From: a virus
Virus record (IMG/VR): IMGVR_UViG_3300028581_000001
Span: 1-64,000 of that record
Reading direction: 5' to 3' (one strand)
DNA length: 64,000 nucleotides
Under the pieces are notes generated by a model that saw only the letters and a list, made by a program, of their open reading frames with translations, was not told the origin of the DNA and ran no database searches. How positions within the stretch are numbered: the first letter of the stretch is position 1; every line of letters begins with the position of its first letter. Both the position numbers and the translations under genes were made by a program. Shown here piece after piece: positions 3,144 to 58,850 of the stretch.

Positions 3144-3354
3144 AATTCTTTTGTTAATAATAATGTTATTACATTATATTTTTTTATATGTGTATGTAAA
3201 TATTTTTTTCTGTAATCTTCTGTAATTTTTTGTAATAATATTTATTGTAGTAGTATACTTTATTTTTTTATGTGCAGTCAGATTATGTTTAGACGACATA
3301 ATACATATAAATATACATAGGACATAATAGCCCCATGAAAATACAAAAATAAAT
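3144..3354. other. AT-rich intergenic stretch, nothing recognised
   Basis: T-rich and A-rich runs with several copies of tgtaat/ctgtaa. No code-25 ORF with a convincing product was found on either strand. It may hold the promoter of the fibre block, but no consensus stands out. Confidence 0.5.
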
Positions 3355-3482
3355 ATAGACAAGAAAAAAAGAAGAAGAAAAAATAAAGAATAAGAAAAAT
3401 AAAAAATAAAATAATAATAATAAGAGAGACAATAGAAGAAAAGAATAAAGAAGGAATAAATAAAAAGGAATAATAAACACAC
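3355..3482. other. Purine-rich (A/G) tract of about 125 bases
   Basis: The plus strand here is almost free of pyrimidines except scattered T: runs such as agaaaaaaagaagaagaaaa and ataataataataagagaga. On the minus strand it gives a pyrimidine tract that the standard code reads as a Phe/Leu/Ser-rich ORF, judged an artefact. Such asymmetric tracts can form triplexes or mark origins; no function is shown. Confidence 0.6.
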
Positions 3483-3660
3483 ACAGTAAATAGGTAAAGG
3501 GGTCACTAGAAAAAACACGAAAGGGGTCAGAGTAAATTAGTAATAGTAATAGTAATAGTAATAATATATATAGTAAATATAATATAATAATATATATATA
3601 AATATATATATTATATATTAGTATATATAGATATATACTATATATTAATGTTGACTATCG
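3483..3660. repeat. Direct decamer repeat, TAATAG repeats and a TA-rich run
   Basis: The decamer AAAGGGGTCA occurs at 3496-3505 and 3520-3529. A taatag hexamer is repeated three to four times from about 3538, followed by roughly 80 bases that are nearly pure A/T with alternating TATATA blocks and self-complementary segments. An easily melted segment such as an origin would look like this, but no initiator sites are recognised. Confidence 0.6.
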
Positions 3661-3689
3661 TCAATAACTCTTTATAAAAGATTTAACAG

Positions 3690-4195
3690 AAATAACAATA
3701 ACCCCTGCTTAAGGACTAGTCCTTATGAACCTAATAAGCTGTATGCTTATAAACTACATTCCTTTCTAAAGGAAGCGAAGTTGCATTGTTCTGTGCCGTA
3801 TGCTGTACGCATTTAGCACGCTGTCGGTTCCCAAACTTTATAACATCAAATCTCGAACTGAAGTGGGAAGTAAAGCCTTGCCTGAAAGGTACCAATCTGC
3901 TAGGGGATACGTTATGCTTCCACAAATGGCAAAGCTCTTTGGGGCAATAGAAATCTCCATGCAATAAGATGTTGGGGAGATATCTTATTAACTAGAAAAT
4001 TATTAGGGTGGTGGTCGGTGGAAGGTGGTGGCTCTTATTGTAAACAAGTGGCGAGCGACAGCGAGCCACATCTTTCGAAGAAAGATAATACAGCCATGAG
4101 GATTGAGAAAAAAAAGACCATCAATGAAGGCGTTGCCTTCATGTATTATATCAATAGATTTTATACCATACGCAAATAAAACCAAAGTGTATTTG
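3690..4195. other. GC-richer structured island without a recognisable gene
   Basis: This segment stands out from its surroundings in base composition and inverted repeats. Visible structures: palindrome AAGGACTAGTCCTT (about 3711-3724); CCTTT/AAAGG pair; ATCTCC/GGGGAGAT pair around 3948-3983; G-rich block gggtggtggtcggtgg (about 4005-4031); GTGGC/GCCAC pair; ATCTTTC-GAA-GAAAGAT hairpin; and ATGAAGGC-GTT-GCCTTCAT (4124-4142), an 8-bp stem with a 3-base loop. Two short minus-strand ORFs cross it but look like chance. It may be a structured RNA or a horizontally acquired remnant. Confidence 0.55.
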
Positions 4196-4692
4196 GCTAA
4201 TAATTATTTATAAGTTCTTAGTTAATTTCTATCGGCTTGTCTTTGTCTGACAGTCTGCATTTAAATTTACTTTGATATGTTAAGTCTTGGCTTCTACTTC
4301 TTATCAGTCGTCTTCTTCGGCTTACCATTTGGCAGTCTGCAACTTCTTACTGATGTGAACATTATATATTTATCAGATAATAAGTCAAATTAAAATTAAT
4401 AATTGGCATAACAATGCTATTATTTTAATAAGTAATTAAAAAATAACTGTAAAAAAGTTAGTACAACCAAACTAATCCAGACAAGCACAAGAGATGACGA
4501 ATTACTGTCATATAACTGGTAGTATTTAGACATTAAAATTAACTGTTTCTTGAAACATATGATAAGAAAAGATATAGTCCTATGTTATGTTAGTATTTAT
4601 TTATGTGATTGTTTATTATATATAGTACATAGTACTTAGTTAGAGGTTATATATAATACATTATAGTAATACACAATCGCCGACAAAAATGA
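4196..4692. other. Intergenic region, no gene recognised
   Basis: Mostly AT-rich. The nonamer CAGTCTGCA occurs twice (about 4252 and 4333). A short run aagatatagtcc near 4568 recalls a group I intron element, but the matching partner segments are not visible. No convincing code-25 ORF was found on either strand. Confidence 0.5.
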
Positions 4693-4740
4693 TCTACAAA
4701 AAAGAACCTAGTTCAAGAAAGATGTTAGGTTCTTTTAGAT
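4693..4740. terminator. Bidirectional terminator
   Basis: AAAGAACCTA and TAGGTTCTTT arms around a loop of about 14 bases, with T runs on both strands. It closes the small gene at 4756-4842 on the minus strand. Confidence 0.75.
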
Positions 4741-4755
4741 ATATGTAGGGAAGTA

Positions 4756-4842
4756 TTATTTACAACCTTTCTTTCAAGGTTTACATGCTCATCATTTCTT
4801 TCATGGAACAGGCATAGATTTCTTTGGTGCACATTTTGCCAT
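4756..4842 (-). CDS. Tiny Lys/Gly/Cys-rich peptide
   Basis: 28 residues: MAKCAPKKSMPVPGKKGG followed by ACKPGKKGCK. Three Cys, nine Lys and four to five Gly, most of the glycines coded by TGA. It lies alone between two terminators, which supports independent expression. No family recognised; nucleic-acid or metal binding are both compatible with its composition. Because it is short it could also be a chance ORF. Confidence 0.5.
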
Positions 4843-4910
4843 AGCAATATAATTAATAATTAATGTAATTATTATATTATTATTATATGATAATGCAAAT
4901 GTTTTTTGAA

Positions 4911-4936
4911 AAAAAAGATAGCCTAAGCTATCTATA
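4911..4936 (-). terminator. Rho-independent terminator (minus strand)
   Basis: GATAGC-CTAA-GCTATC hairpin followed on the minus strand by TTTTTTTT. It follows the stop of the small gene at 4941-5039. Confidence 0.8.
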
Positions 4937-4940
4937 AAAC

Positions 4941-5039
4941 TTATTTTATCTTAAAGAAATTTTTCTTATGTACATATCTATTGACTTCAGTATCAGTTGC
5001 CTGAACTTCAACTCAATCAATCTCTCCTGTTCTATACAT
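4941..5039 (-). CDS. Small hypothetical protein
   Basis: 32 residues, start MYRTGEIDGVEVQA, end YVHKKNFFKIK. Charged, no motif recognised. It is flanked by a terminator on each side, which favours a real small gene over chance. Confidence 0.5.
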
Positions 5040-5040
5040 T

Positions 5041-5069
5041 TAAAACAGTAAAACAGTAAAACAGTAAAA
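5041..5069. repeat. Tandem 9-base repeat AAAACAGTA x3
   Basis: Three head-to-tail copies directly beside a terminator. Possibly a slippage product or a protein-binding array. Confidence 0.8.
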
Positions 5070-5070
5070 G

Positions 5071-5108
5071 AAAAAAAAGACCTGCAAATTTAGCAGGTCT
5101 TTTTATTT
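5071..5108. terminator. Bidirectional terminator
   Basis: GACCTGC / GCAGGTC stem flanked by A8 on one side and T5 on the other, so it can act on both strands. It follows the gene at 5118-5546. Confidence 0.85.
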
Positions 5109-5117
5109 ATCAGAATA

Positions 5118-16378: not shown

Positions 16379-18793
16379 TTAATGTTTAACATATAAATTT
16401 TCAAATGTAGTACAACGAGAAAGTCATACATACAAAAGTTCTTTTGACATTCACTTAATATATGTTAAGCATACATTATCTAGTGAAAGTCATTGACTAT
16501 TATGTGAAACAAATCATTGACATACAAATGAATGATCTCATTCAATTTCTATATCATATGTATTTCTAATTCATATATTTTCTATAGAAACTATTTTATC
16601 ATAATAGAAATTATTATCTAATGTTTTATTTAATACTTTTAATATAAATCATTTTGATCTAGCAAATGAATCTAAATATATACATTGTTTATAAGAAAGA
16701 TTTTTATATCTTAAAATAGCTTTAAGTTTTTTATCTTTATTATATCACAATCATTTAATACATTCTTTAAATTCATCTATTATTTTATTTCTATTAATAA
16801 CAAAATCAATACTAGATTTTCATTTAGATATAAAATTAATTAATCTATCTTGTTTATATCAAACATTAAATCATAAATATTTATTGAATAACATAACATT
16901 TATTCAAGTTATATTTAATACATATGCTTGATTATGTTTATCTGAATATTTATTTAATTTATTAATATAACTTACTATTCAGAAATCTAATAATAAAAGT
17001 TTAATCTTATTAATTAAATCTTTTGAAATAGATACATATCTAATATTTCAATTCTTAGAAATAGATCAATCAGTATCAAATAATCATTTAAGTACATTAG
17101 ATTTTATTAATCAATTAGATTTGAAAATTCAATCTGGTATTGTTTTATCTTTTCATGTACAATAATCTAATCATATTGTATATAATAAATCTCTAAACAT
17201 TTTAGAAGTAAATATAATTGACTTCGCTTTATTATCTTTTTTTCATTTTAATAAATAATTAATTCAAAAATTAGATAATAATTCACAACTACTATTTAAT
17301 ATATGTTCATCCATAGAAGTTATATCAATTCTTCAATCATCTTTATAATTATAAGATCAATCTCAAATTAAAACTCAAATGAAATATGCGAAATTACTAT
17401 CTATATATTTTGTTATATATATATCTTTAGATCTATTTCATAAATCTGGTTTGTGTAATTCAATATCATTTCAATCTAAATTAATAGTTCTATTCATTAT
17501 AAGATAATCTCATATATTTAATTTTCAAGATTCAATATATTCGTTTGTATGATTTAATACTGATAATAATCTATGTTCTTTAGTAGTAATAATTTCTCAT
17601 CATGATTGTGTAGTTATTTTAATAACTTCTTTTTCTCATGTAAATTCTTTTCATATTACTTTCTTAAAAGAAAATCAAGTATCAACAGTTTGTCATAGTT
17701 GTATATCTTTAATTGCAAATAATCAATCAGTTGTTTTTACTAATTGATTTTCTTCAATACATTTATGGATTGTCATAGCCCATGAAAGTTTCAATGGTAT
17801 CTGATTATAAGTACCAATAGTTATTTCTGTAGTTCAATCATACTGAACTTCTTTCCATTCTTCATAACCTATCTCAAAGTTACAATCGAATCTATCAGAA
17901 TGAATCTCAACTGTATTGGAATTACATTTAACTACAGTTCAAAGATCACCATTGACTAATCAATTCTGTAAGTTCTTAGTAACCATAATTCTACATCATT
18001 CTTTTAAATATAGTTCTTCTGGTGTAATACAGTTCTTAGAATTGAACTTACCATATATATATCATTTGTAAATATATTCTTTTGCTTTAACAGTTTCAAA
18101 TCTTTTCTTATTAAAAGCATCTACCATATTATTAAATGGCATTAAGTGAACACTATGCTCATCTCAATATCATCTATTGAAATCATATATTGAACCCATT
18201 TTATTATCTCTAATATTATTAAGTAGTTCAACAAAAGTATTATCTTTTTGTCTACGTACTTTAATTAGATTAAGTTCTTTGAATCAACTATAACAAAATG
18301 CATGATCGAATGTCAGCTTTCAATACTTAGTAACAAGATCTTCTATCTCATTCTTATCCTGTTCTGTGAAACTACCATACACAGGTGGCAATTGATTTGG
18401 ATCTCATACTAATATCATCTGTATTCAACCAAAAGCTTTCTTATTTCATCTCATTTTCTGAAGTAAGTAATTAATATAATCCAGATAGTCTGGTCCAACC
18501 ATTGAGATTTCATCAATTACTATTGTATCTATCTCTGGCCAATCAACACTCTGTTGTTTGATGGGCTTATTATGTAAGTAGTTACCGAACATCTTAAATG
18601 TAGAATGAATAGTAGCTCATCATATATTTATTGCTGCAATTCAAGTAGGTGCAACTACTATTACATTCTTTCATTTAGCTCTACTTTGTTTAATGAATTC
18701 CTGAGTTGTATATGTTTTACCAGTTCATGCTTTCCCTGTAAGAAAACAATTAACTCAACTTAACATATGTTCAAGTGCTTTATCTTGTGTCAT
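16379..18793 (-). CDS. Pif1/RecD/Dda-like helicase precursor with an intein
   Basis: 804 residues. Extein: P-loop GKAGTGKT (20-27), APTGIAA, ATIHSTF, Walker B DTIVIDEISM (Asp94-Glu95), VGDPNQLPP, then motif-V region LSWAMTIHK. After that Lys the sequence becomes an intein (residues 345-765) and resumes with SQGLSLDNVCLTY and LSRCTT at the C-terminus. Spliced product about 383 residues, the size of Dda-type 5'-3' helicases used in phage replication and recombination. Neighbours (HslV-like peptidase, PD-(D/E)XK nuclease) are within 11 bases or overlapping. Many motif glycines are TGA. Confidence 0.9.
16499..17761 (-). mobile_element. Intein with LAGLIDADG homing endonuclease
   Basis: 421 residues in-frame inside the helicase. 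It starts with Cys (CIEENQLVKTTDG), has an N-terminal block B-like EIITTKEHRLL, two dodecapeptide motifs FIGVLIGDGS and LKGLFDTDGS, and C-terminal blocks NTYDIEIEGDHSFVCQGFVS ending in His-Asn before a Ser extein residue. These are the residues needed for splicing and for a two-motif LAGLIDADG nuclease. Insertion is exactly at the helicase motif IHK/SQG, a conserved site. Confidence 0.9.
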
Positions 18794-34178: not shown

Positions 34179-35528
34179 TTAAAAGTTGTCTATTCTAACA
34201 TATGTATTTTCGTAAGTTTGACCTGCGAATATATTAGCAATAGTCATCTGAGCTGTATACTTAACATAGTCTACTGATGTTTGTGGCATCTTAAGAACTG
34301 TATATCCAGTACCAGAAGTTTTTACTAGTGCACCTGCATCAGTTACTGATTGATATTCTGGAGTTCTGAAAGTAACTAAATGTTTTGGGAAACCGAAAGC
34401 TTTTGAAGCATTAGGATATAGAGTATTTAGAGTATGAGATACAATCCATTTAACATTTTTGAAATATGGAGAACTATATTCAGTTATTCCAAAATCAATT
34501 GTCTTTTCTTGAAGTGTAAAAAAGTTACTCATATCATACATAATCTCAGAAAGATTAGTAATGAACTCATAGTTACAATAAAATGTAGGAACTTCAGATC
34601 AAGTATAAACTGGAGCTGAACACATTCTATTAATAACTTCTACTAGTTTCTTAGCCTTAGCTTTACCTGCAACAACTCATGTAAAATCAATTATTGCTGT
34701 ACCAAGATTACCTTCTCTAGCTTCCTTCTCTTCAATCAAAGTATTAAGACCTTGAGTTTCTGATTTAGGTCCAGAAATATTTCTACCAATATACCATGCT
34801 TTTGCGAAAGCGTTGTTAGATCTATTAATAACTATAGCAAATTTAGATTTAATATATTCCTGTGCATCAACGAATAGTCTAGTTTGATTGATTTCTTGAG
34901 AATCAAATTCCATTGATCAACCAAATTTTTGGAAATATACTTTAACTGGAGTGTAATCTGAATCAACTCAACCTCTAGTGATCTCAGTACCATGAATAAT
35001 CTGATTATATGCAAACATTACATAGTCATCAGTAAGACAAGTTACTGCAGAATCTAGAGTTACTACTGTTGGATTTCATAGATTTGGAGTAATAACAGTT
35101 ATTACTCTTTGCTGATCAGTTGTTACTGAACCAATTCATGGTTTAATAACTACAACGTCACCTACTGCAAGATATTTAGCTGTAGCTTCTGAAACTAATA
35201 TAGTAGTATCTGCAGTATTATCTGCTGTGATAATAGCTTTATCAGTAAAAGCTTGAGCTTCATTCCATACAACTTCGTTCTTGTTGATAGTCATATCAGT
35301 TTCAAGAGCACCAATTGATTTAAAGTTTAGAGCTTTTTGTTCCATATAAGTAAGGCCACCTCTTTTAAGTTTACCTCAATCCTTATATACATTTGGTAGG
35401 TAAAGACCTACATACATTAGTTCAGGGAAATCTCTTATCCAAGAGTTCATAACCTGAAGACCTTTTGCTGTAACATTATCTAATATAGATTGAGCATCTG
35501 TTACAGTAGTTTGTACTGCGTTTGACAT
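34179..35528 (-). CDS. Major capsid protein
   Basis: 449 residues. Position (scaffold and portal upstream, neck genes downstream), length, an own terminator and codon choice all point to the major capsid protein. Features: N-terminal helix SNAVQTTVTDAQSILDNVTA, beta strands around LAVGDVVVIKPGIGSVT, long stretch AYNQIIHGTEITRGGVD, and a final domain ending ENTYVRIDNF. About 30 glycines by hand count: roughly 19 GGT, 3 GGA, 1 GGC and only 7 TGA, the reverse of its neighbours. No direct HK97 motif seen, as is usual. Confidence 0.8.
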
Positions 35529-41217: not shown

Positions 41218-44200
41218 TTACTCTGGGCTAAATGGTAATCATTTTGTTAATCATTTACTAGTACGTACTGGATCTTCAAATCATGTACCTAAAAACTTTT
41301 GTCTTATTTTTTTGTATGGTGCTTTAAGATTTATATATTTTTTTTCTGTTTCGTCAACTTTTTTCTTAACGACATACATAGGTATTATTCATTTAGATTG
41401 ATAACCTTGATAAATATTTGTAATAATTATTCAAGCATACTCTTGATTCATTTCAAATTTAGCAGGATTAAATCAGAATCATTGTGGCCTAAAATCTTGT
41501 TTAGCATTTAGATATTCTTGTGGATCTCTAGATAAATTTCATTCTTTTCATGGAATAAATTTTCTTATAGGATCAAATTGTTTTGAAAAATTTGGTCTAG
41601 CTCAAGAAAAAGCATTGCTTTTAAATGGAGATTTATAATCTCATGTAGCAGTTCTTTTTCATGCTGTTGCATTTAAATCATTAAGATAAGATTTAGAATC
41701 ATAATCCATAGATTCTGTAGAAACTTTAAACATCCAATTAGTTATTTGTTTCTGTGCATCTTGTGTTAATGTTTTGAATCTTTCATTATCATTAAATAAA
41801 TCATATTGAGATTTACTCATTCACATAATTACTGCAGCTTGATTAGCTAGTTTTGATTTCTTTTCCATGAAAGGATTATTTTCAATTTGATTTAAGAATT
41901 TTAATCAAACTTCTATTCATGTCTCATTTCATTTCAATCATTTAAATGCTAATGCGTATTTAGATTGCAATGTTGCTACCTTAGTATCTCAATTCTTCAT
42001 TACATTATTAACTAGATATTCTGTTGATACCAATTTCATTATATCATTCTTTGCATATTTAAAATTTTCTGCTTCTTCAAACTTAGTAAATAGATCTCAA
42101 TAATTTTTTTGTACATCTTTCTCTATAATATTCATTACAGAATTATTATCTAAATTAAGATACTCTTGATATTTTAATAATGCATCTCTAGTTATTTGAT
42201 TTTCCTTTTCAGAAGTCAATGCTAATGTTTGCTTTCAAAAATATTGTTTACCAGTTATAATTCAATCTGTTTTTTTAGCTTCTTCCAACTTTAATTGTTT
42301 TTCCTTATTGATTATCATATAAAGAAATAACGGTGTCTTAAGATGAGTATTCATATCCATTAATGCTAATGATTTTAATAATCATTTATCTACTCAATTT
42401 ACTGAAACTATTTGCTCTAAAGTTTTTCAAGTTTGTTTTTCTAATTCTTTATTAATTTGTCACTCAAGAATACTCATAACTTTTTCTGGAGTAAATTGTT
42501 TACCAGATTTATCAGTTAATATTCTTTTTCATTTTTCATCTAATCTATCATATCAGCTATAATATAATTGATTCAAAATATCTTTTGCATTAGCTTCTTG
42601 ATCTAATGTCATTGAAGTTCATTGCATTCATAGTAATGATGAAAGATTATAATCTTTATCAGTAAATCAAATTTGTCATCACTTTAAAAGTTTTCAAAGA
42701 TTTGGATCTTTTTGTATTCTTGTTTGTATATCTTTAGAAAGATCTGTTAATACTGAATATGCAATGTTATCATTATCTCATTTTACTAATGAGGTAAAAC
42801 CAGATAATACTGATTTTATAAATCATTTATCTTTATAACTTGCAAAATTTTTTCATTCACTTAGTTCTTTAAACATTTCATCTCAATATGTATTTCATCA
42901 TAATCATAATATTCAAAGATTAGAATCTTGAGATATTGAATTAAAATAATCATCTGATTCTTTCATTCAATTAAATCTTATTGAAGCAGTATAATGTTGT
43001 TTGGTTGCATATTGTAATGCTTCAAACATATCTCATTTTCATAATACAGATTGTGCTACATATCTATCGTATGCTGTATTAATAAATGCTCATTGTTTAA
43101 ATAATCTAGTCATTCTATCTAATAATGTTTTAGTTGTATACGCAACTTGATCAGATTTAGTTCAATATTCTCAAGCTGTATTCCATGCATTTAATTGTTT
43201 ATCATAAATAATTCTTACAGATACAAATGCATTATTAAATATTTTTTGAAATTCTCATATACTTAATCTATCTTCATTATCTTTTTCATATTTTTGAAAC
43301 TTAAGATATATTCAAGTTGTATATAGTATTTGTTTAGCTAGCATTGAATTATACATTGCCCAATCATGAAAGTGTGCTATAAATCATGCAGTATTTCATA
43401 GATATAATTGTTTCATTCAAGTTAATAGAGCTGATTCTTTTTCTATTAATGTTGCAGCTTTATGAAAAGACCATCACATAAGATATGAAAAAGACTTGAC
43501 TGCGAATTGTGTAACAAAATTATCAAACATTAAATATGAATCTTCAAATATTGTTCATGAAGCTATTGCAGAAGATGATACAACTCATCATCATGAGTTT
43601 GCAAAGTTTCTTCTTACTGCAGATTGAAATACATTTTTAAATTCTTGTCATCAGTTTTCAAATGCAAGATTAATAGCTTTCATATCTTTAAATTTAAACT
43701 GTTCCATTGTTTGTAATACGGCTGTAATCTTACGAAGATTCTCTAGTGGCCGATCATTAAATCATAACATATTATTTATAAATGAATCTACCATTTCACC
43801 TGCTCTTTTAGCAGAATCTTTTCACACAACCTTTCAGGCTGCATTTGTAGCTAATTCTTTTGTAAATTTAGATATAGCTTGTTGTAAGAATGATTGATTT
43901 AAATTTTTTCAAAATCATGTACCCATCATTAATACATCTTCAAAATCCATAAGTCATTGTGTCTTTATTAATCTATATGCATCATCTAGTTTATCAGAAT
44001 TTTTTGCTGCATATGCTCTTAGTTCTATATAATTTGGCAATATTTGTGACATTCATGCTATAATACTATTCTGAGTTAAGAAAGTTGAAGCAGTTCAGTA
44101 TGTCATATTATAATGGAATCATTTAGCAAATCATAATACTTTATCTAACATAGATAATCAGTTTTTAAAAACTGCTTTACTCATTACTTTAATTTCAAAA

Positions 44201-47200
44201 TCACTTATATCATAACTCATCATTTCTCAATTTCTATTATATGCCATATTTTTGGCATTGTTTTTTAAATATTCATGAAAATCAGCTTCATCTTTTATTC
44301 ATATTAATTTCAATGCAAATTGTGCATCTCATTTATGAGCTTCTAATAAATCAGTTACTAATGTAAATGGTGCTTCTAATTTTGAATAAATAGAATAAAC
44401 ATCTTTTTTAAATAAAGAATTTATTTCATTTAATGCAATTATAATTGGATCAATAACATTAGTTTGATAATCAGTTAATATAGTTTTAAATTTTGCATCA
44501 TCTAATAATTTTAATATTGATCATTTAGAACTTATTCATTTATCACTTTTCATTTTATCAATAGCTATATCTAGATTTGGTCTAGAGAATACTCAATCTT
44601 TTGATTCTATTAAATAATATGAAAACTTTTTTTCTATATCTGAAATATCTTTAGCAGATAATCAAGTTTTTTTCATTTCTCTATATATAGTATCTCATGT
44701 ATTAAACCAATTATGTGAGAACTGTCTTACATGTTCATCACTAGCATTTGATATTATTCTTTTAGATCATAAAGAAATTTCTTTTTCAACTCAATTTTCT
44801 GTAATAGTTCTAAAAGTTTGTCTTTCTCTATTTAATAATCATTGAATAGTATCAAATGTTGTTAATAATCTTGGTGCAAATTTATTGAATAGAGATTGTT
44901 TAGTTAATTTAATTCAATCTTTTGCTAATGAAACTGCATCAGTAAACTCTGACATAATTTCATTTACTGCCTGAGTTGATCTATCTACTGTATTAAAACT
45001 AAATTCTGGAAATACATAGTTATCTATATCTTGTATTTCTACTTTATTTGAAATTATAGAAGAATCTATAATCGGATCTTCAAGTAATTTATTATTTTCA
45101 ATTTCATATATTGTTTTTTTAGTACTTTCAATTGACGTCATTACTTTTTCAGCTCATTCTGTATCTCATGATTTTTGTAATAATTCTAAATCTGCTTCCA
45201 TTTCTTTTAATAGTTTTGGAAAATATTCATTATCAAATTTATCAATTCACATATGTTCTTCAAAATTGACATCTAATCATATATTTTTTAATCTATCTCA
45301 TTTTATATTATCAGAATCTCATAGGAATTTTAATTGTAAATTATTATTTATAAAATTAAATATTCTATTCTCTCATAATGTAATAGCATAAGCTGCTCAA
45401 ATTCATTGGTATTCTTCTGGTAATACTTTAATATATTCTATTAAATCTTTTTTAATTAATTTTTGAGCTTCTTTATTTCATTTCTCATCATATATATTTT
45501 TAATCTTTTTAAGATAATCTAATATAGTAAATTTTCACATAGATCATGTAAATTCTTGTTTAAGTATATCTTCATAATCTTTTACAAAAATATTATTATC
45601 TTTAATAAAACTATTTAATCTATCTTCTCTTTTAACTAATCATGCTATTTTTGTTTTATTATTTTCAATTTGCATTTCAATAGTTCATGTATTCCATTTT
45701 TTTATTTTATAATTTAATAATTTACTTTCATTGCTTTTTAAGAAAAATTTTTCATTATTTAATAATTTTTGAGTATCTATTAAGCTGCTTCTGGCAGTTG
45801 CAGTATCTAATAATCATAATTTAATTAAAATATTTTCTTGTAATTCATCTTTAGAAAAATTATATATTCAATTATATGATCATATATCTTTTGATATATA
45901 TCACATAGAATATCAATTTACATTTTCTAAATCATTAAGTATATCAGTTAATAATTTATTACTTTTATTATCTTTAAAATTTTTACATAAAAATATTATA
46001 TCATTAGAAGTATTGATTGCTTCTATATATTCTCATATAGTTGTTTTTCAATTAAACATTTCTTTATCATTGAAAAATGATTCTATTATTTCTCATTTAT
46101 GTCAAAGAGTTCATAATAATAATAAATAATTTTGTTCATCTTTATTAAATACTGCATGAGTATATCAATTTTCTTCAGTAACTATTTTTCATATTTTATA
46201 ATCTGGACTTTTTTCTAATAATTTAGTTATTTTAATATAAGACCTTTTTAATTGAGATAATTTTTTCTCATCCATTTTTATTAACTTATATCATTTTGCT
46301 AATGGAGAAATTAGATCATGATAATAAATTCATATATTATTATCTATTCATGCATATTCTAATAAATCTTTAAACCAATTTTTATCGAATTCTGTTTTTC
46401 CTGAATTACCAAAGTCTAATGTTAATTGTAATATAGAAGCAGCAGAAGCATTATATTTTCTTAAATCTCATGTAAGAAGTTTTTGTCATATATTTTTATA
46501 TAAATCTTCTATTGTAATTGTATCAAGTAAGTTTGGATTTTTTAAATTAGATGGATTTAATTCTGATCTAATTTTTCTTTTTCAGAATTTAATTTTATCA
46601 TCTCATGTTAATGATTCATATTTATCAAATACTTGTCTTAGTATAGATATTGTTCTAAGAGTAGCAGAAACTATTCATACTGATTGTTTTGCTTCAAGTG
46701 CTACTGCTCTTGATTCCCATAATGAAACTTCTTTAGGAAATAATTTATCTAATTCATTTTTTAAATAATTAAATAATTTTGGTGCTTTAGTTTCTAGCAT
46801 TGCTTTATCAGTTCATATTCATCACTCAGATACAACAATTACTTTTCAACTTGCTTTTGCATTGATAATTGCTTCATCTACTTGTTTTTTAAATATATCA
46901 AAATCTGCATCTGTAAAATATGAACTAGCATCTGTTCATCTATTCTTTTTTGTATCAATTCAAATTGCATTTGGTAATCATCTTATAACTGCTTGTGTTG
47001 AAGTTGGTACATGTTTAGTATTTAATCTATCGTCAGTATTATCTCAGAATAAAAATACTTTATCTTCTATATTCTCAATATCAGATCTTTTCCAATGTCA
47101 TTTATATTTTTCATTTCTTAATCATTTATCTACTTGATCAGCAATTATATAATTATTAAGATGTTCTCAATTTTTAAATTCATCTATAAGATTTCTATTC

Positions 47201-50200
47201 TCTGATAACTTTATTCAGAAAATAGATTTTCAAACTATATCTCAAAACTCTGATTCTGCATTAATAAAGAATACGTGATCTCAATCATTATCTCATTCAA
47301 GTTTTAGATATGTTGTGATTGGATTTGTTACTACTTGATCTCATCACATATTTTCATATTCTTGCCATAATTTTTTTCAATTATTATCTACTTCATCTGA
47401 AAATCTAATTCTGTACATACCAAGATTATATTCTGATGGTACAGGATATCTATATCAGATTGTAAATAATGGTTCTTTAAAATTTTTAATTGCTTCAATT
47501 TTATCTTTATCTGCAACTGTATCTAACTTAGAAAGTTTATCTTCTATTATTCATTTAACTAATTGTGAATCTTTAGATACTATAATTTCTTCAGCTGTAA
47601 TTTTATTAGTAGATTCTCTAATAAATACAGAGGTTCATTTATCTTGTGGTTTATTTAATATCTCATCTACTTCTGATAAGAACTGTTTTAATCTTCATCA
47701 TGCAACTGAATCTGTTAATGTTCATCTTTTTACCAATCAAACAACTCTAGATATTATATTATCAATATCAGAAATATTATTAAAATTAATATTAAAATCT
47801 CATAATGAATTAATATTATTTTGAAATGATTTTTGAATTGCTTTTAATTGAAGTTCTGTCAATGCTTTTGAATATTCATATCATAATCTTGACTTAATAG
47901 AATCTGACAATGTAGTCATATCATCATCTGATGTTGATTCAGAAGATGCATTTCTAAAGAATGATGTATCTGTTCATTCTACTTCTCATAAAACTTTGTA
48001 TAGTTTTCAATCAATTATTATATCTTTAGGTGTATCGAATGTAACATATCATCATTCTAATTTTAATGATGATTTTCAAATAACTACTGCGTTATCAAGT
48101 TTGCTTCATTCATATACTATTTCTGCAGAATTAAATAATGTTTTTCAAAGCACTCTACCATTATCTCATACATCTCAATAGAAGTGATCCTTGAATTGGA
48201 ATACATCTTCTCAATCTCATCATTGAATTCTATCTCTAAGTCTTGCCATATGTCAAGAAATAAATGATGTTCAATCTTGATTATCCTTATTAAATGCTGA
48301 ATCTAAGAAACTTACTTGTTCATCTGGATCTGTTATAGATACTAATCTTTTTCTAATATATTCTGGAGTATCTTTATTTGCAATAGTTCTATCTACGTTA
48401 ATTGTTTTATCATCATTGTATTTAATCCAACTATTATCAAATTGTTTTGCTAATACTAATGTTTTAAGTGGAATCTTAATATCATCAAATGTTGAAAAAT
48501 TTGACATGTTAGCAGACTCTCTTTTACGAATGTTATTAGTTTCTAAAATAATTCATCTTCATTCTCTTTTAATTCAGTTAGATTCTTTAAATTTATTTTC
48601 AATAATGTTAAGATCTTTTTTAAAAGCTTCATACGTAGAATACTTTATATTCTTAAATTCAGATGAAAATTTATCCCAATCTATTTTAACTTTTAATCCT
48701 GTATGATTAAAGTATCAATTCTTTAAAGCATATTCGTATTCGAATAAATCTAATTCTATTCTAGATTTTTCTATATCTTTTATTTTACTATCATATATAG
48801 AAAGATCTGATCTATATAACGTAAATACTGAATCCTTGTCTCAGAAGTTTCAAGCAAATACATCTCATTTTCTAATATGTAACTGTTCAATTACTCTAGC
48901 TCTAAGATCTTTTAAAATAATTTTTTTCTTATTTAAATAACTTATTAAATCTACTGAAATAAGATTTGTTTGATTATTTATTAATGCTGTTATGAATTTA
49001 TAAATTTCTCATTGAGTAACATATGCATAATTTATATAATTTTGTTCTATTATTCAATATTGACTTTTAAAAAAGTTATCAAATATATTTTTTAATGTAA
49101 GTTCTGATCAGTATTTATCAATCTTTCATGACTTAATTATTCAGAATTTTCATCAATCAATTCATCTTAAGAAATTTACATTCATTCATTTTTCAACCAT
49201 TTGTTGAAGCTGTATAATGTTTTCTGTATATTTATCTGGCTCTACTTCATCTTTTAATGCATAAGTAAAATCATCTACTTCTTCAATGGATACGTTAATA
49301 TCTGCTTTAACTCTTTCTCATTTAGCATTAGTATAGTCATTTGATTTATTTCATAATGCTCTAATCTTTTTGAAAAGATCTTTACCTTGTCATCTTTTGG
49401 TATTATTAATATCCTTAAGTAATACTTCCATAATATTATCAGCATCATTAATAGATACTTTATATCATGATATATCTAGTATTTCTTTTATAAATGCTTT
49501 ATATCAATCAAGTTTTCTTTTGTTAATATATTCTCATTTAGCATCTTTAAAATATTCTTTACTATTAAGATCTTTTATTAAATCTGAGAATTTATTATCT
49601 CATAAATTAAATAGATCAGAAGCTGATAAATCATAGTTAATATCTTTTTTAATTAATTTTGGATCTATTAAATATTTTTTTCATTCTAACCAATCTTTTA
49701 ATATAAATGGTCATCATAATATATCATTAAATGATTTATTAGATTTATTTATTAATTTATTATAAATATCAATTGATTCTTTTATTTCTAATCAGTATTC
49801 TTTTATTAAATTGTCTATAGTAAATTCTATTTTTCTTGGTTCATAATTTTTTATTACTTTTACATTTTTTCAATTATGTTCTAAAAATTCATTTTGTGGC
49901 ATATCATAAATAAATATTTTTCAATCTTCTTTTAATAATGCTACTTTATGATATATTGATTCTCAAAATAAATTTCATTTAATTCATACATCTATTGGAT
50001 ATACATCCATTCATTCTATTAATAATTTATTAATATTAAATTTTGATGTATAACTACATGGTAAATTATTATATGAATATTCTTTTCCTATCGTTATTAA
50101 TGATTCATTATCTTTTCAAGAATATGCCCAGTCTATAATTGCTTTGTTAATCTTTGGCTCTTGTCATGTCTTTGTATTATTAAAGAATGCTACAAGCTTC

Positions 50201-53200
50201 TTAATTATAGGATTATTCTTTTTAGCGAACTCAGCAGTCATTGTATCGTTTATAATATCTTCCATTTCTTTTAAAATGAAATTCTCATCAACAACATTTA
50301 ATGATTGACATTTACTATTAAATTTTTGAAATATATATTCTAATACTTCTTTATATACTTTTGATCATCATAATGCTATTGCTTTATTAAATATATCTAT
50401 TTTTTCTAATAATCATTTAGAATTTCTTAAATCAGAAATTAGTCTTGTAATTCATTTTAAATCTTCTGTTGTTAATTGTCAGAATTTTCATTTCATTTCT
50501 ATATCTTTTTCAATTGATTTGGTTAAATCTTCAACTTTTAAATCTATTGAATCTTTAAGTTTTGGTTTTAATTGTGAAAATGTTGCAAAATTATCTGAAG
50601 TATTTTTAATATAATCAACTGTAAAATTATTTATAATTGAATCTGTATAATTTGTTTTAAATTTATATTTTTTTAAATTTCATAACAATTCTTTTTTTAA
50701 TCACTTTTCAATTAAAATTAATTCTTCAATCTTTTTTTGTAAGTTTTCTTTAATTATTTTATCTGGAATAGCTTTCTTTTGTTCTTTTAAAGTATTAATT
50801 CAATTTTGATTTTTCTTAATCAAATTATTAATATTTATTACATATCTCTTCCATTCTTTTTCTACTTGTGGTTCTAATGTTTTTGCTAAAGAAGATTTAA
50901 ATACTTTATCTCATAATAGAGTTTTAGATAATGGTTCTATTAATTTAGGACTAAGTAATAAATCTGAGAATGCTTTTATGTATTGATCATCCATTTTTGG
51001 ATCTACTCAAATCTTTTTTATAATTGCATCTATTAATGGTTTATGTTCTGCATATTTATATGCAATATTATAAATCATTGGCTTAACTAATATTCATATA
51101 TTTTCATTTGCATTTACAAAAATATTATAAATAAAATTATTTAGAACTTCAAATTCTTTTGTATCTGGTTTTATATCTAATATATGTCTAAGTGTAGCAG
51201 TAATATAATCTTTATCTAATACTCAATCAGTAAACATTCAAGTTACTTTAGAACTTGCATGTATTATCCTAGAATTTTTTATTCAAGTTTCTAGATCAAA
51301 TACTCAATCTTTTTCTCAATATTCATAAATAGATCTCATTAATGCTCATACACTCTTAGCATAATTAGAAACTTTATAAATCATTTTTCATTCTTGAACT
51401 ATTTTTCAAGAAAGCATATCTTCAAACTCTGATTGTTCAGATAATTCTTTACCTGCTGTTAAATACATTATGAAATTTCTTCATCATTTTTTATCTTCAA
51501 TATATCAATATGTAAGATTTAATAATCATTCTTCTCTTGAAAAATAATTAATAAGATCTTCTCATGGTACTACAAAATTATTATCTTTAGCAGCTTGAAA
51601 CTCTTTCATTTCATTTATGAAATTTACTTTTCAAAAATTATTTTCTCAATAAATTTCATCTACAACTCATTTAATTAATTTTCATATTTCATTCATTAAT
51701 CAAATCTGTTTATCAATTGGAACTTTACTAACAAATCACATAACTTGAGATCAAGATTTTTTATCTAATGTTCAATTCTTTCAAACTATTGTTCTAATTG
51801 TTTGTTGTATATTATTTTCAGGTACTCAATATGCTTCTCATAATTTAGTTATTGTTTGTTTTCTTGATATCATTACGTTCTTTATTTTCTCTACAAATAA
51901 ATCTGTTCATTTATAAATATCAAATGCTGTTCATTTTTTAAATTTATGTCATTCAATAATCATATCATCTTTAATTTTAACTTGTCAGTTTTTAATTAAA
52001 TCAACATAATTTTTTTTAAAATCTTCTATATCATTAAACTTAATATTAATAACTCTTCAAGTATCTCATGGAAAACTAACTTGTATAGATCTTACATATT
52101 CTACATTAGAATATGCATCCTGTATTGCTAGAGTATTTTCTCTTATAATATCTAGATATTCTGTTGCTTCATCTTTACTAGGTGCTAATTTAATTTGTTG
52201 TATAGCTTGTTTAATTTCTATAACTTTAGTTTCATAATATGAATCATTTTTTGGTGGTGTAACCTTTCTATCATAAGTTCATTTTCATGTTGCAACATTT
52301 AATGCATCATTTAAATATTTATCTTGCAATAATTTATTTACTTCATATTCTTTACTTCATGATTTTAAATCATATCATTTTAATACAGCATCATCCATTG
52401 CATCAAATTGTCTTCATGTAATTCATGTAACATCTTCCAGATGTAATCATATTCATTCTGCAGTTACTATTTCTTTTAGTCTTCATTCTTCCATTCATAG
52501 AATATTTTTAGACATAAAGTTAAATAGTTCAGCAGGTTTATCAAAAATTTCTTTTACTTTTGCAGGTGAAAAAACTGTATATGCAATTTCTTTTCATTTC
52601 TCCATTAATTTAATTGCACTATTTCTATCTAGTTTAATATTATTTTGTGTGTCTAGAGCCTTAACAAAATCATCTACTGCAGCTCAGTCTTCCTTATAAA
52701 TATAATTATACATTATACTATTCTTTGCTTTTTGTGCAGTTTCATAACCAAGTGATCAAACCTGAATTATTCATTTTCCTGCTCAATATATTGCTGTATC
52801 AAATACCAATCATGTTATCATATTAAAGTTTTCTGATACATCTGATGGTGCTTGCATCATTGTATTATCTATAATTGCATCTCATGGTGCTCATTGTAAT
52901 AAACTATTAGTAGCTCATTTCATTCATTTAGTTATTTTAGAATCCATTACTTTTGGAAATACTTTTAATATGCTTTCTCAAAATCAAATATTTGTTTTAA
53001 TTAAAAGTCATATTCATTTATCTGCTACTAATGCTGCTCATTTTGTAATTCACTTTGTTACTAATCAGGTTCATGCTGTTGCTGTCGCTAATGATAATAA
53101 TGCATCTGGATTATATGCTATTACCGATAGAAACTTATCTAGGTTTCATTTGTCTGCAGTTATTAAGCTTCTATATTCTTGTCTAATATAATGTGGAACT

Positions 53201-54603
53201 TCATCTTTATCATTATCATAAACCTTATCAAAAATTCTTTCAACTGTTGCAGCAGAATATGAATATGCATCCATTAATGATTTAAAAGTATCAATAGGTC
53301 AAGATAGAAATCTATCTTTCATTTGTTTTAAATTTGTTGCTTGAGATATAGATGTTATTAATGATTCTTTAGATCTTAATTTATCTTTATCTTCTTCGGA
53401 TAAAGATTGATATGCCTGCTTAATTGCTTTCTGTCTAACTTCTTCATCATTTTCTTTATTATAAGATGGATCATTTTTTAATATAGCATATCTTCTAACC
53501 ATTTCAAGATCCATATTATATCATACATCTGATATTTCTTTAAACTTTGCAGCAATTTTTTCATTATCTGGAAGATCTTCCATTCATAAAAGTTCTAGAT
53601 AATATTGTTTATCAGTTGTCGCCTTTTCTACAATCTGATCTTTAAGATTCATAAAAGTTGTTCATCATATTCATACAATATTTTTTGCATCCTTAGCAAA
53701 ATCTTCATCAAACTTTTCTGACATCTTATTATTTAATTCTCATATAAGAGTAAAAGTATCATTTCATTTTACTAATGCATCTTGTTTTATTTGTATTTCA
53801 TTATAAACTTCTTCTCATGTTTTTTCTCAATTTGCTTTAATAGAATTATTTAAATAATTCTTAAGCTCATTTTGTTTTTCAGTATATTCTGTTTGATATC
53901 ATCAAATGGATTCTTGTAATGTTGCAGCTTGACTTAATATATTTGATTGTGCAAATGGATCTAATAAATCTAATTGCATTTTTTGAAAATTAGAAAAATC
54001 TTCTTGATCAGTAATTGTTGTAATTCATTTTTCTGATAGATATTGTTTTTCAACTTGTTTACTAAAATCTCTATATTCTGTAAATCTAGGATCTACACTT
54101 GATATATCATGAATTTTTTTCTGTCTATCTCTTAATAAACTTTCATATTCTTTAACTTTAGCTTCAAAATCTTTTTGAACTATTCATTCATTTAAAGAAT
54201 TTTTAAGTCATGTTCAATTTAATACATCACTTCATTTACTAATTCACATTCAAGTTAAACCTTTTACTAAATCCCATGCCATTCATAATCATCATAGATT
54301 TTTAAATCTATTTGAAAGTGATCTATCTTCATCTGATATCTTAGGCTTTTCTCAATATTTATCTTGAAGATCATAATATTCTATTGGATTAACAATTCAA
54401 TCCCATAATCATGCAATTCACTTTTGTTCAATTTTATTTTCAACTCATTCAATTGCATCCTTTCCCCAGTTAATAACTGAAGAAGCAGTATCTGCTACTG
54501 CATCTACTGCTTGTGTTCATAGCTCAACTGCTCAACTAGCTACATTTGAAATTCATTCTCATACAGCTTCAGCTGCATTTATAATACCTTCTAGTGGTGT
54601 CAT
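41218..54603 (-). CDS. Giant polyprotein with DPBB RNA polymerase core (putative virion RNA polymerase)
   Basis: 4,461 residues in one frame; I read every line of 41218-54603 and saw no in-frame TAA or TAG. Around residues 2382-2450: IGYRYPVPSEYNLGMYRI, VTNPITTYLKLEGDNDGDHV. DNDGD (Asp2438, Asp2440, Asp2442) matches the catalytic DxDGD of double-psi beta-barrel RNA polymerases, preceded by the expected R.P segment. Upstream, DGTSFISGHMARLRDRIQGG (about 2110) resembles another conserved block of phage RNAPs. Residues about 2515-2625 resemble a phage-associated FGDN...GIGT...APK module. Segments near 502-545 are hydrophobic. crAss-like phages carry similar giant RNAP-containing proteins beside the terminase; packaging in the virion is inferred. 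Confidence 0.8.
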
Positions 54604-55423: not shown

Positions 55424-55451
55424 AAAAAGTCCTGATATACAGGACTTCATT
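55424..55451. terminator. Bidirectional terminator
   Basis: AAGTCCTG / CAGGACTT stem with a 5-base loop, A-run on one side and TTTTTAT on the other. Marks the boundary between the replication operon (ends 55453) and the late block. Confidence 0.85.
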
Positions 55452-55452
55452 T

Positions 55453-57159
55453 TTATATAAATCATTGAACAGAATTTTTAGTTAATTTTATGTCTCAAGT
55501 TGAAAAATCTATTTTAACAAAGAACTCTTGTCATTTCTTTCAGAATTTATTCTTTGCTATTGAAAGTTTTATTTCATTTGAATCCTCATATAAAATAAAT
55601 ATCACATCACTAGATTGAAATAAATCTCAAGATCATTTCAACATAACTTTATTTCATTCTTTCTCTCTAGAGTCGTTGTTAACTTGTGATAGACTGAAGA
55701 CTACACAGTTATTTCTAATGGCCATCTTCTGTATTTCTCCTGCAAGAGTTGACATCTTCTCGTAAGATGATACTGCAGGACAAGTAAATCATTGTATGAA
55801 GTCTATAAATACTATATCAAACTTTTCCATTTCAGTTGTTTTAATAATTCAATCTAGTGTAGAAATATTATCATACAGATATAAATTTTTAAAATCATCT
55901 CTGTTAATCTTGATCTCTCATTTAAGAATTGAATTGAAATGTTTTTTGTAATATGCCTTAGCAATATATCAAAGAAGCAATCATGTGTCAACTTCTATTG
56001 AGAAGTATCAAACTTTTTTTCCTGCTTTAACAAAATGATTTACATATTCATAACTGAATTGTGATTTTCATGTGTTAGAGAATCATCCGATAGTATAAAC
56101 CTTTCATTCAATAATTCATTGAGTTTCTTTATCAAGTAATTCAAATGGGCCTTTCTGTCACATTTGTCATCTAGCTTGAAAAATACTTTTAATACTTTCA
56201 AACTTTGCAAATGCAAGATCAATGTTCTTTGGTTCTTTGGTTCTATCTTGCTCAATACATTCTAGAACTTCTGCTCATATTCAACTAGATACAATTAGTT
56301 CATTGATATCTTTAACTTCATATGGTGCAAGATCGAATACAGAAAACTTAATGTCTTTAAGATTTTCTAATATAGCTTTACCTGCTTCATCATTATCAGG
56401 TATAAGAATAATCTCATATCACTTTTTATAGAATGCTCTCACTACATCTTGTCATTCATTTGCTGACTTAAGGCCAATAACATTTACTCAAAATTGAGCA
56501 AGTGATAAGAAATCAAACATTCATTCTACTACATAAACCTTTTTAACTTCCTTATTCATTGTAGTTAGAAAGCATCACTTAGAGTTTGTTCACTTTTCTA
56601 TCATGAATTTTTTCTCTGTAATGGATCTATTCTGAATTGATATTATTCAATTTACATCATATAATGAGCAAGAAACGTATCATTGATTATTTTTGATATA
56701 AGTATCGACTTTCGTATAATCTATTCACCTACCCCTACAGAATTCAATCTGGTCATCATTTAAATTTGGAAGTGAATTCCATTTATCAAAAACTTTTTTC
56801 TTGACATCTAAAGGAATTTCCATATTATGTTGTTTGTTAGTTAGTAAATTAGTTTGAAGATCCCTTTTGGTCAGGGGATCTTTTTGTTCATCTTGAAGAT
56901 TGAACGTGTCCTTAAACCGAATTACTGCTTCTCATTTGTCTAATCCATTGTACTTCATGATGAATGATAGTCTGTCTCAGAATGCTCTCTTACCAGAGAA
57001 ATCAGATATAATATTAAGATTTGTATCTGCTTTCCATCAATCAGTTGGTTGTCAATGCTCGAATAAATTTAAAGTGTGTCCTGATACAGAGTATCTAATT
57101 CATACTGATCTCAGTATGTCTTCTAGTTTTATAGAATTGATTTGTTCAAAAATATTCAT
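55453..57159 (-). CDS. Primase-helicase (Toprim + DnaB-like RecA domain)
   Basis: 568 residues. N-terminal primase-like domain (LEDILRSVGIRYSVSG, GWKADTNLNIISDFSGKRAF) without the usual zinc cysteines; Toprim motifs KVYVVEGMFDFLSL (Glu about 212) and ILIPDNDEAGKA (about 255); helicase Walker A IGGFSNTGKSQ (358-365), FSIEVD, Walker B FDIVFIDFIQGF (Asp about 453), LSQVNN. T7 gp4 / Twinkle-like architecture. ATG 57159 chosen because the frame is open and domain-like from there. Central replisome protein. Confidence 0.9.
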
Positions 57160-57184
57160 TAGTTTTCTCAAATAAAAAAATAAA

Positions 57185-58030
57185 TTAATTAGGACTATAT
57201 GGTTCTGTAGATCTTGTAATCCATTTACGAAGTCTAGCTTTTAGATTATAAATTTCATTATCTTTTTTCTCTCAATAGTATGCAATGAATTTATCTAGTT
57301 CATTCATAACAACTTCAGTTCAAGTAAAATTTCAATCTCTATCTTTTTTAAATCTATCAGGATATTTTTCTAAAAAAAAGTCTATCATCCAATCATATAT
57401 GTTTTTTAACTGTTGTAATGTAAATGATTGTTTTATATTTGCTTCTTCTAAAATGTCGCAAAGTTTCTTTGTTCATCTTTTTTCTCACATAAAAGAATAA
57501 ATTTCTTCTCTTGTTGGTATAATTAAAACTTCTAGCACATCACTTTTCTTTTTTTTCTTAGCCCTTATAGGTAGCATGTTACCAGTAGTATTATAGTCAT
57601 GTATATTATTATTTATATGAGATATATTATTATATATATCTGTAGTATTATTACTGTCGTTCTCACCGACTACGTCGTTCACATCGACTTCACTCACAAC
57701 TTCTCACTCAGTATCGTCTATGTAATCAAGAATTTGTACTTGATATAAATTTACAAAACATTCAGTTTTACTCTTCCATCTTTTATATTTTTTAATTATT
57801 TTTAAAGATTCTAATTCTTTTATTCATTTCATTATAGAATCTCTTCAACATTTATTTTTTTCTGCTAAATCCTGAATTGCTATTTCAGCTACTCAATTTT
57901 TATTTGCATAAAAACATAATGTTATGTAAACGCATTTTGCATATATATTCATATCTTCTAAAAAATCTTTATTAGGAACTGTCATAAAAGTAGTTGGTGC
58001 AAATTTAATTTGCGATTTATTATTATTCAT
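57185..58030 (-). CDS. Winged-helix replication initiator-like protein
   Basis: 281 residues. Residues about 30-95 form a wHTH typical of phage replication organisers: YITLCFYANKNGVAEIAIQD, LAEKNKCGRDSIMKGIKELE, SLKIIKKYKRW. Then an acidic Asn-rich linker (GENDSNNTTDIYNNISHIN), a basic KKKKKSD patch and a C-terminal helical domain (LQQLKNIYDWMIDFFLEK). Directly upstream of the primase-helicase in the same operon, as DnaD/RepO-type loaders often are. Confidence 0.7.
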
Positions 58031-58047
58031 AATATATTTAATTAATA

Positions 58048-58260
58048 TTAAAGCTGAACTCATTCATAATTTATTTCTTCTCAATCATTATCTACCATTT
58101 TTTTTGTAATCATATATATGTCATCTATTTTTATTATAAATGGTCATATATCTAAAAACTTTTTAGTTTCTAGTTTTTTAAGTATAGTCTCTGTATCTTC
58201 ATGATTCATCTCTAATGGAGAATCATATCATCTTACATGTAAGATTAATTCTAATTTCAT
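58048..58260 (-). CDS. Small hypothetical protein
   Basis: 70 residues, start MKLELILHVRGYDSPLEM, acidic. First gene behind the structured leader at 58290-58394. No family recognised. Confidence 0.7.
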
Positions 58261-58289
58261 AATATAAAAAGTTAAAATAAATAAAATAA

Positions 58290-58394
58290 AAAACCACCTT
58301 CTCTAATGTCGTGTTGAGCAAGTGGTTTTGTATGTTCTTTTTTATCTGGTATATTCTGACCTGAAAACACGACTAATCAAATCAGAATATACCA
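58290..58394 (-). ncRNA. Kissing-loop leader with terminator-like hairpin (attenuator candidate)
   Basis: Hairpin A: AAAACCAC (58290-58297) with GTGGTTTT (58322-58329). Hairpin B: TGGTATATTCTGA (58347-58359) with TCAGAATATACCA (58382-58394), 13 bp. Loop A contains GTCGTGTT (58308-58315) and loop B contains AACACGAC (58366-58373): perfectly complementary over 8 bases. In the minus transcript hairpin A is followed by a U-rich run and lies about 30 bases upstream of the first replication gene. Loop-loop pairing could decide whether hairpin A terminates. Confidence 0.7.
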
Positions 58395-58425
58395 AAACAT
58401 ATAACAAATATTAAAGAACAATTTC

Positions 58426-58453
58426 ATTGTATTCATTTTTTAAATCCTGTCAA
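58426..58453 (-). promoter_or_regulatory. Sigma70-like promoter, leftward
   Basis: On the minus strand TTGACA (58448-58453), 16-base spacer, TACAAT (58426-58431). It would place the start just upstream of the kissing-loop leader and drive the operon 58260-55453. Confidence 0.65.
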
Positions 58454-58487: not shown

Positions 58488-58517
58488 TTGACAATGTTAA
58501 TTAAATTAATATATTAA
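58488..58517 (+). promoter_or_regulatory. Sigma70-like promoter, rightward
   Basis: TTGACA (58488-58493), 17-18-base spacer, ATATTA/TATTAA. Followed by an AACTTATA/TATAAGTT inverted repeat near 58522-58541 that may be an operator. Drives the only plus-strand operon. Confidence 0.6.
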
Positions 58518-58568: not shown

Positions 58569-58850
58569 ATGCTTAGAAAGAATGATATTGCAGAACTCAT
58601 TGCAGGTGAGTTTAGCATGAAAAAATCAGAAGCAAACAAAGTATTGGACTTCGTCATATGATCAATTAAACTTGAATTGATCAAATGAAATGATGTCATT
58701 ATACCTACTTTGTTTACTTTGTCTGTTAAGAATGCAATAGGTAGAACTGTTATAGTTCCATCTACATGAGAAGTATCTGATGCTAAAATATATAAAAAGC
58801 TCAGATGTAAATTCTCTACGAAGTTTAAGAATCAAGTTAAGAATATTTAA
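58569..58850 (+). CDS. HU-like DNA-binding protein
   Basis: 93 residues: RKNDIAELIAGEFSMKKSEA, NKVLDFVIGSIKLELIKGND, VIIPTLFTLSVKNAIGRTVI, then GEVSDAKIYKKLRCKFS. Follows the HU/IHF pattern (helices, arm, final helix). Three TGA codons (ViG, iKG, STG) fall where Gly is expected, notably the KG-ND turn before the arm strand. First gene of the plus operon; may organise phage DNA. Confidence 0.8.

Follow-up and report, generated by a model that had tools for sequence, protein, structure and literature searches.

Can the leader of a phage replication operon switch its own terminator by pairing one hairpin loop with another? The question arises at a change of coding strand, adjoining a replication initiator gene, in a virus genome whose initial annotation described two hairpins with perfectly complementary loops in a divergent promoter region. 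Both hairpins lie where they had been placed, their loops are complementary over exactly 8 bases, and promoter-like sites with 11/12 consensus matches point away from each other beside them (Table 1).

The phage and its replication operon

The window (the whole stretch analyzed, 64,000 nucleotides) covers most of a 64,895-base virus record. Its genes, for example those for the HU-like protein and the primase-helicase, are open only if TGA is read as glycine (code 25), which on sequence grounds identifies it as a code-25 phage. Absconditabacteria and Gracilibacteria use code 25, as do some of their phages (PMC10746230). The terminase gene contains 44 TGA-glycine codons here and 43 in a relative. 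The codon is sparse in the major capsid gene (34179-35528, 7 codons) and missing from the relative's capsid gene (L004:8128-9477, 0 codons), and highly expressed genes may avoid the recoded TGA codon.

The leftward replication operon encodes, in order, a 70-residue protein of no known family, an O-like/DnaD-like initiator and a primase-helicase, and an intrinsic-terminator-like hairpin directly after the last gene marks its end. Rightward of the hairpins lies the gene for the HU-like protein, with its own operon.

Table 1. Features of the hairpin region and adjoining genes, in window positions.
Feature	Position	Strand	Remarks
Intrinsic-terminator-like hairpin	55426..55448	-	directly after primase-helicase gene; operon end
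Primase-helicase (Toprim + DnaB_C)	55453..57171	-	TTG start uncertain
Replication initiator (HTH_36; O-like / DnaD-like PHROGs)	57185..58084	-	TTG start uncertain
First operon gene, 70 aa	58048..58260	-	no known family
U-rich tract UUUUUUAUUUUAUUUAUUU after stem A	58275..58293	-	expected end of short RNA of ~136 nt
Hairpin A, terminator-like, 13 bp	58286..58333	-	12-nt loop AACACGACAUUA (58315-58304); -13.9 kcal/mol
Loop A kissing segment AACACGAC	58308..58315	-	on leftward RNA
P1 3' strand AAAGAAC	58334..58340	-	leader fold; directly 5' of hairpin A
Hairpin B, 18-20 bp	58345..58396	-	12-nt loop UUAGUCGUGUUU (58376-58365); -23.9 kcal/mol
Loop B kissing segment GUCGUGUU	58366..58373	-	on leftward RNA
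P1 5' strand GUUCUUU	58413..58419	-	leader fold; at predicted RNA 5' end
Leftward sigma70-like promoter TTGACA-16-TACAAT	58426..58453	-	11/12; likely start near 58419
Rightward promoter TTGACA-16-TATATT	58488..58515	+	11/12; leads away from hairpins to HU-like gene
HU-like DNA-binding protein	58569..58850	+	TGA read as Gly

Conserved fragments and alignments led to three syntenic code-25 phages (IMGVR_UViG_3300031403_000011, 3300027996_000026 and 3300000216_000001), with terminase identities of 54%, 37% and about 36%, and primase-helicase identities of 25-35%. Scans of IMG/VR with the primase-helicase, terminase and initiator revealed no close relatives. GenBank phages yielded no match at the DNA level, nor any protein match to the terminase or capsid; a terminase alignment against GTDB genomes gave none either. 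DNA patterns for the loop pair and for stem B had no match in IMG/VR. GTDB gave a single hit, in the haloarchaeon Halorussus, which was GC-rich and was judged by eye to be a chance match. No Rfam family reached its gathering score in the window, the best weak match being Phe_leader (25.6 of 55 bits). A tRNA or T-box reading of the locus was dismissed, since the window contains no tRNA and Rfam gave no match of that kind. In the nearest relative, the place to the right of the primase-helicase operon that the hairpin leader occupies in this phage is taken by genes for tRNA-Met and tRNA-Pro (L005:11796-11949).

Other parts of the genome have features of their own. The Dda-like helicase (16379-18793) contains an apparent intein with a homing-endonuclease-like part at about residues 345-765; a relative's homologue (G1 50458-51621) is without it and matches in two blocks on either side. 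A single protein of 4,461 residues is encoded at 41218-54603, with counterparts of 4.0-4.7 thousand residues in all three relatives. It carries DUF7831 and a DNDGD motif (GDNDGDHVFF), which we take to resemble the active-site motif of RNA polymerase, and is possibly a virion polymerase. The stretch 3150-5110, about 1.9 kb, lacks convincing genes and any Rfam family; it has very AT-rich repeats and a strong terminator (5104-5074).

A leader predicted to fold, with complementary loops

The predicted transcript of the leftward promoter, and of the two divergent promoters only this one, crosses both hairpins. Along the leftward strand the order is promoter, start at 58419, helix P1 with hairpin B, hairpin A with its U-tract, and then the replication genes. 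Sites matching at least 11/12 consensus positions number 7 per strand in the window against 4 expected from shuffles, and promoter-like sites as a whole are no commoner than background in DNA this AT-rich (26% GC), so the two divergent promoters are supported mainly by position. The sigma70 consensus is itself weak evidence here, because promoters and termination in the host group are little studied and the DNA is 26% GC. A consensus scan detected no second strong promoter between hairpin A and the operon.

It had also been suggested that the two loops might belong to plus- and minus-strand transcripts and act in trans. The same kind of scan, which covers consensus sites only, gives that arrangement no support: it showed no plus-strand promoter-like site above background on the left side of the hairpins, and the promoter for rightward transcription points away from them.

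The stem lengths of 8 and 13 bp first given for A and B hold for the plus strand, but on the leftward RNA the stems extend to 13 and 18-20 bp, because three positions form G-U pairs there and are A-C on the plus strand. Stem A on the leftward RNA includes one G-U pair and one G.A mismatch. The predicted energies on the plus strand are weaker (A, -11.5 kcal/mol; B, -18.3 kcal/mol) than those of the leftward RNA, and the z-scores of the fold against shuffles are -7.0 for the minus strand and -4.6 for the plus strand. Stronger stems on the leftward RNA through G-U pairs are as expected if the RNA is selected.

The U-run previously noted behind stem A in the leftward direction, ahead of the replication operon, is present: hairpin A is followed by UUUUUUAUUUU (U6AU4), and this terminator-like element stands 25 nt before the first operon gene. 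Hairpin A thus has the features of an intrinsic (Rho-independent) terminator, a G+C-containing stem with a U-tract directly after it. A strict terminator scan for loops of 3-8 nt missed it, its loop being 12 nt long. The loops of this phage's clear intrinsic terminators (60151+, 55448- and 5104-) measure 4-7 nt, and this difference suggests that the sequence of loop A matters and makes the loop look purpose-made. Termination in the U-rich tract would yield a short RNA of about 136 nt.

Folding from position 58419 indicates that the leader is structured almost completely, from its first base to the U-tract. Its first seven bases pair with the linker before A in a 7-bp helix, P1, which encloses B; the chance that a random 7-mer matches the linker is 0.7%. 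In minimum-energy folding of transcripts of increasing length, B and P1 form earlier than A. B could fold back beside P1-A, judging from lengths of about 20 bp for helix B and about 20 bp for P1 and A together.

The complementary plus-strand 8-mers are GTCGTGTT at 58308-58315 and AACACGAC at 58366-58373. Their predicted pairing comprises 8 Watson-Crick pairs, 4 of them G-C (-9.8 kcal/mol). The whole 64 kb has exactly two copies of the loop 8-mer, one in each loop, and the kissing segments have no further exact partner in the window. Of the 623 pairs of neighbouring hairpins in the window, no other has at least 7 complementary loop bases. Among 2,398 neighbouring hairpin pairs from four related phage genomes, the loop match ranks first (-11.3, against -7.0 for the runner-up). 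When other loops of the window were paired at random, 11 of 600,000 pairs reached -9.8, corresponding to about 0.01 expected among 623 pairs; on run length alone, 36 of 200,000 had a run of at least 8, or about 0.1 expected in the window. Shuffles of the two loops themselves retained at least 8 complementary bases in 0.43% of cases, and 12-mers drawn at random from the window matched over 8 bases in 0.12%. The loop match is therefore unlikely to have arisen by chance, but it is a single case that was chosen by eye, and it does not exceed chance overwhelmingly once the whole window is counted as searched.

A candidate attenuator and its alternatives

We tentatively favour the reading that the folded leader is a conditional attenuator of the leftward replication operon, in which contact between loop B and loop A acts on terminator A; as a sequence-based proposal it falls somewhat short of an even chance. 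RNA polymerase would make hairpin B first, and loop B could catch the emerging AACACGAC while the 3' arm of A has yet to be transcribed. The contact would alter the speed or completeness with which A closes, and thereby the share of transcripts that end at about 136 nt rather than running on into the initiator and primase-helicase genes. We lean slightly toward a contact that delays closure of A and favours read-through. A competitor for loop B or loop A, either a protein or released copies of the short RNA accumulating as genomes multiply, would then determine how much of the replication proteins is made. The fuller proposal is unlikely, namely an attenuator in a phage of a UGA-glycine host in which the upstream hairpin reads the terminator loop and the released leader also serves in trans as a signal of genome count or superinfection.

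The same structures could form an ordinary leader with a terminator, in which A lets a fixed share of transcripts through, B only shields the 5' end or provides spacing for the terminator, and the loop complementarity is a coincidence or by-product. This is possible, though we consider it rather unlikely. The loop pair is a single case found by reading the whole window, the match rates of random 12-mers and shuffled loops leave some room for chance, and no conservation is seen, as none of the three relatives, all too distant for the leader to be aligned, has a comparable loop pair. That absence neither supports nor refutes a function, because an untranslated leader is not alignable at such distance. 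Against coincidence stand the window-wide expectation of about 0.01, the four G-C pairs among eight in a 26% GC genome, and the unusually long loop of hairpin A. By analogy with the CI RNA of phage P4, the released leader of about 136 nt might instead act in trans, its loops pairing with nascent leaders and stopping transcription of the replication genes in proportion to the number of genomes or when the cell is superinfected. Any two copies could pair twice, since each leader carries both complementary loops; P4 CI RNA itself pairs with leader sequences upstream of replication genes (PMC4825925); and the loops have no exact target elsewhere in the phage, where the longest complement of 14 nt is AT-only and within the control range. 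We nevertheless judge this improbable, since pairing in cis should outcompete pairing in trans unless it is strained, and the ORFs scanned include no integrase or repressor, so that lysogenic immunity is not an obvious need.

Two further readings have very little probability in our view. In one, an ORF starting at AUG 58400 (MFWYILIG..., 58272-58400, 42 codons in code 25) would be translated through B and A, opening the terminator. Its frame begins 19 nt past the predicted start and stays open until 12 nt short of the first gene, its eighth codon is a TGA that encodes glycine only in a code-25 host, and its lack of a Shine-Dalgarno sequence does not exclude it, since the genes of this phage are also without a clear one. 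Yet a frame of 42 codons, with only TAA and TAG as stops, has a roughly 5% chance of being open, it contains no run of regulatory codons, and RNA pairing explains the sequence. In the other, equally doubtful, the inverted repeats would act as DNA, as protein-binding sites or a replication-origin structure, with the RNA incidental. The position beside the initiator gene at the change of coding strand fits such a role, but the stems pair better in the leftward RNA than they do in DNA or in plus-strand RNA, the intergenic stretch has no iteron-like repeats, and the loop 8-mer is not repeated elsewhere, unlike operator copies; an operator reading was rejected for want of further copies of AACACGAC in the window.

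Relation to known RNA regulators

The usual role of kissing loops is to connect two RNAs, or a pair of hairpins within a ligand-binding domain. In the pT181-type attenuator, leader hairpins precede a replication gene and a kissing contact controls an intrinsic terminator (PMC3753616). The present leader likewise couples loops able to kiss with a terminator ahead of a replication gene, but in pT181 a separate antisense RNA, made from the opposite strand, supplies the partner, whereas here the partner loop lies in the same leader; no opposite-strand promoter was seen in the consensus scan, the one approach used. The P4 CI RNA with its seqA-seqC segments resembles it as a phage leader before replication genes, with complementary segments in one leader and premature termination (PMC4825925). 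Of the features of P4-type immunity, complementarity to leader segments is present here at the sequence level. P4 uses a processed RNA, two targets and a lysogenic state, whereas the present leader has a single 8-bp loop-loop pair and a terminator of the intrinsic type, and the ORFs scanned give no sign of lysogeny. The purine riboswitch also combines two hairpins in one leader, a kissing loop and coupling to a terminator (PMC9756952); its hairpins lie inside a purine-binding three-way junction, whereas here P1 encloses B only, the second hairpin is the terminator itself, and there is no Rfam match.

The put RNA of phage HK022 likewise places two hairpins that govern termination at the beginning of an early phage transcript; it binds RNA polymerase and lacks kissing loops, a comparison made by description only.

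A defining feature separates the element from each of the pT181 attenuator, the P4 CI RNA and the purine riboswitch, and it belongs to none of them. We regard it as a real and well-placed RNA structure, for which a role as attenuator is credible from its sequence, and as new in the sense of a variant. Regulation in phages of code-25 bacteria is, to our knowledge, essentially unstudied, and this leader, if the proposal is true, would be one of few candidate regulatory RNAs in them. A terminator whose loop pairs with a hairpin further upstream in its own leader would then constitute a compact RNA switch for phage replication genes.
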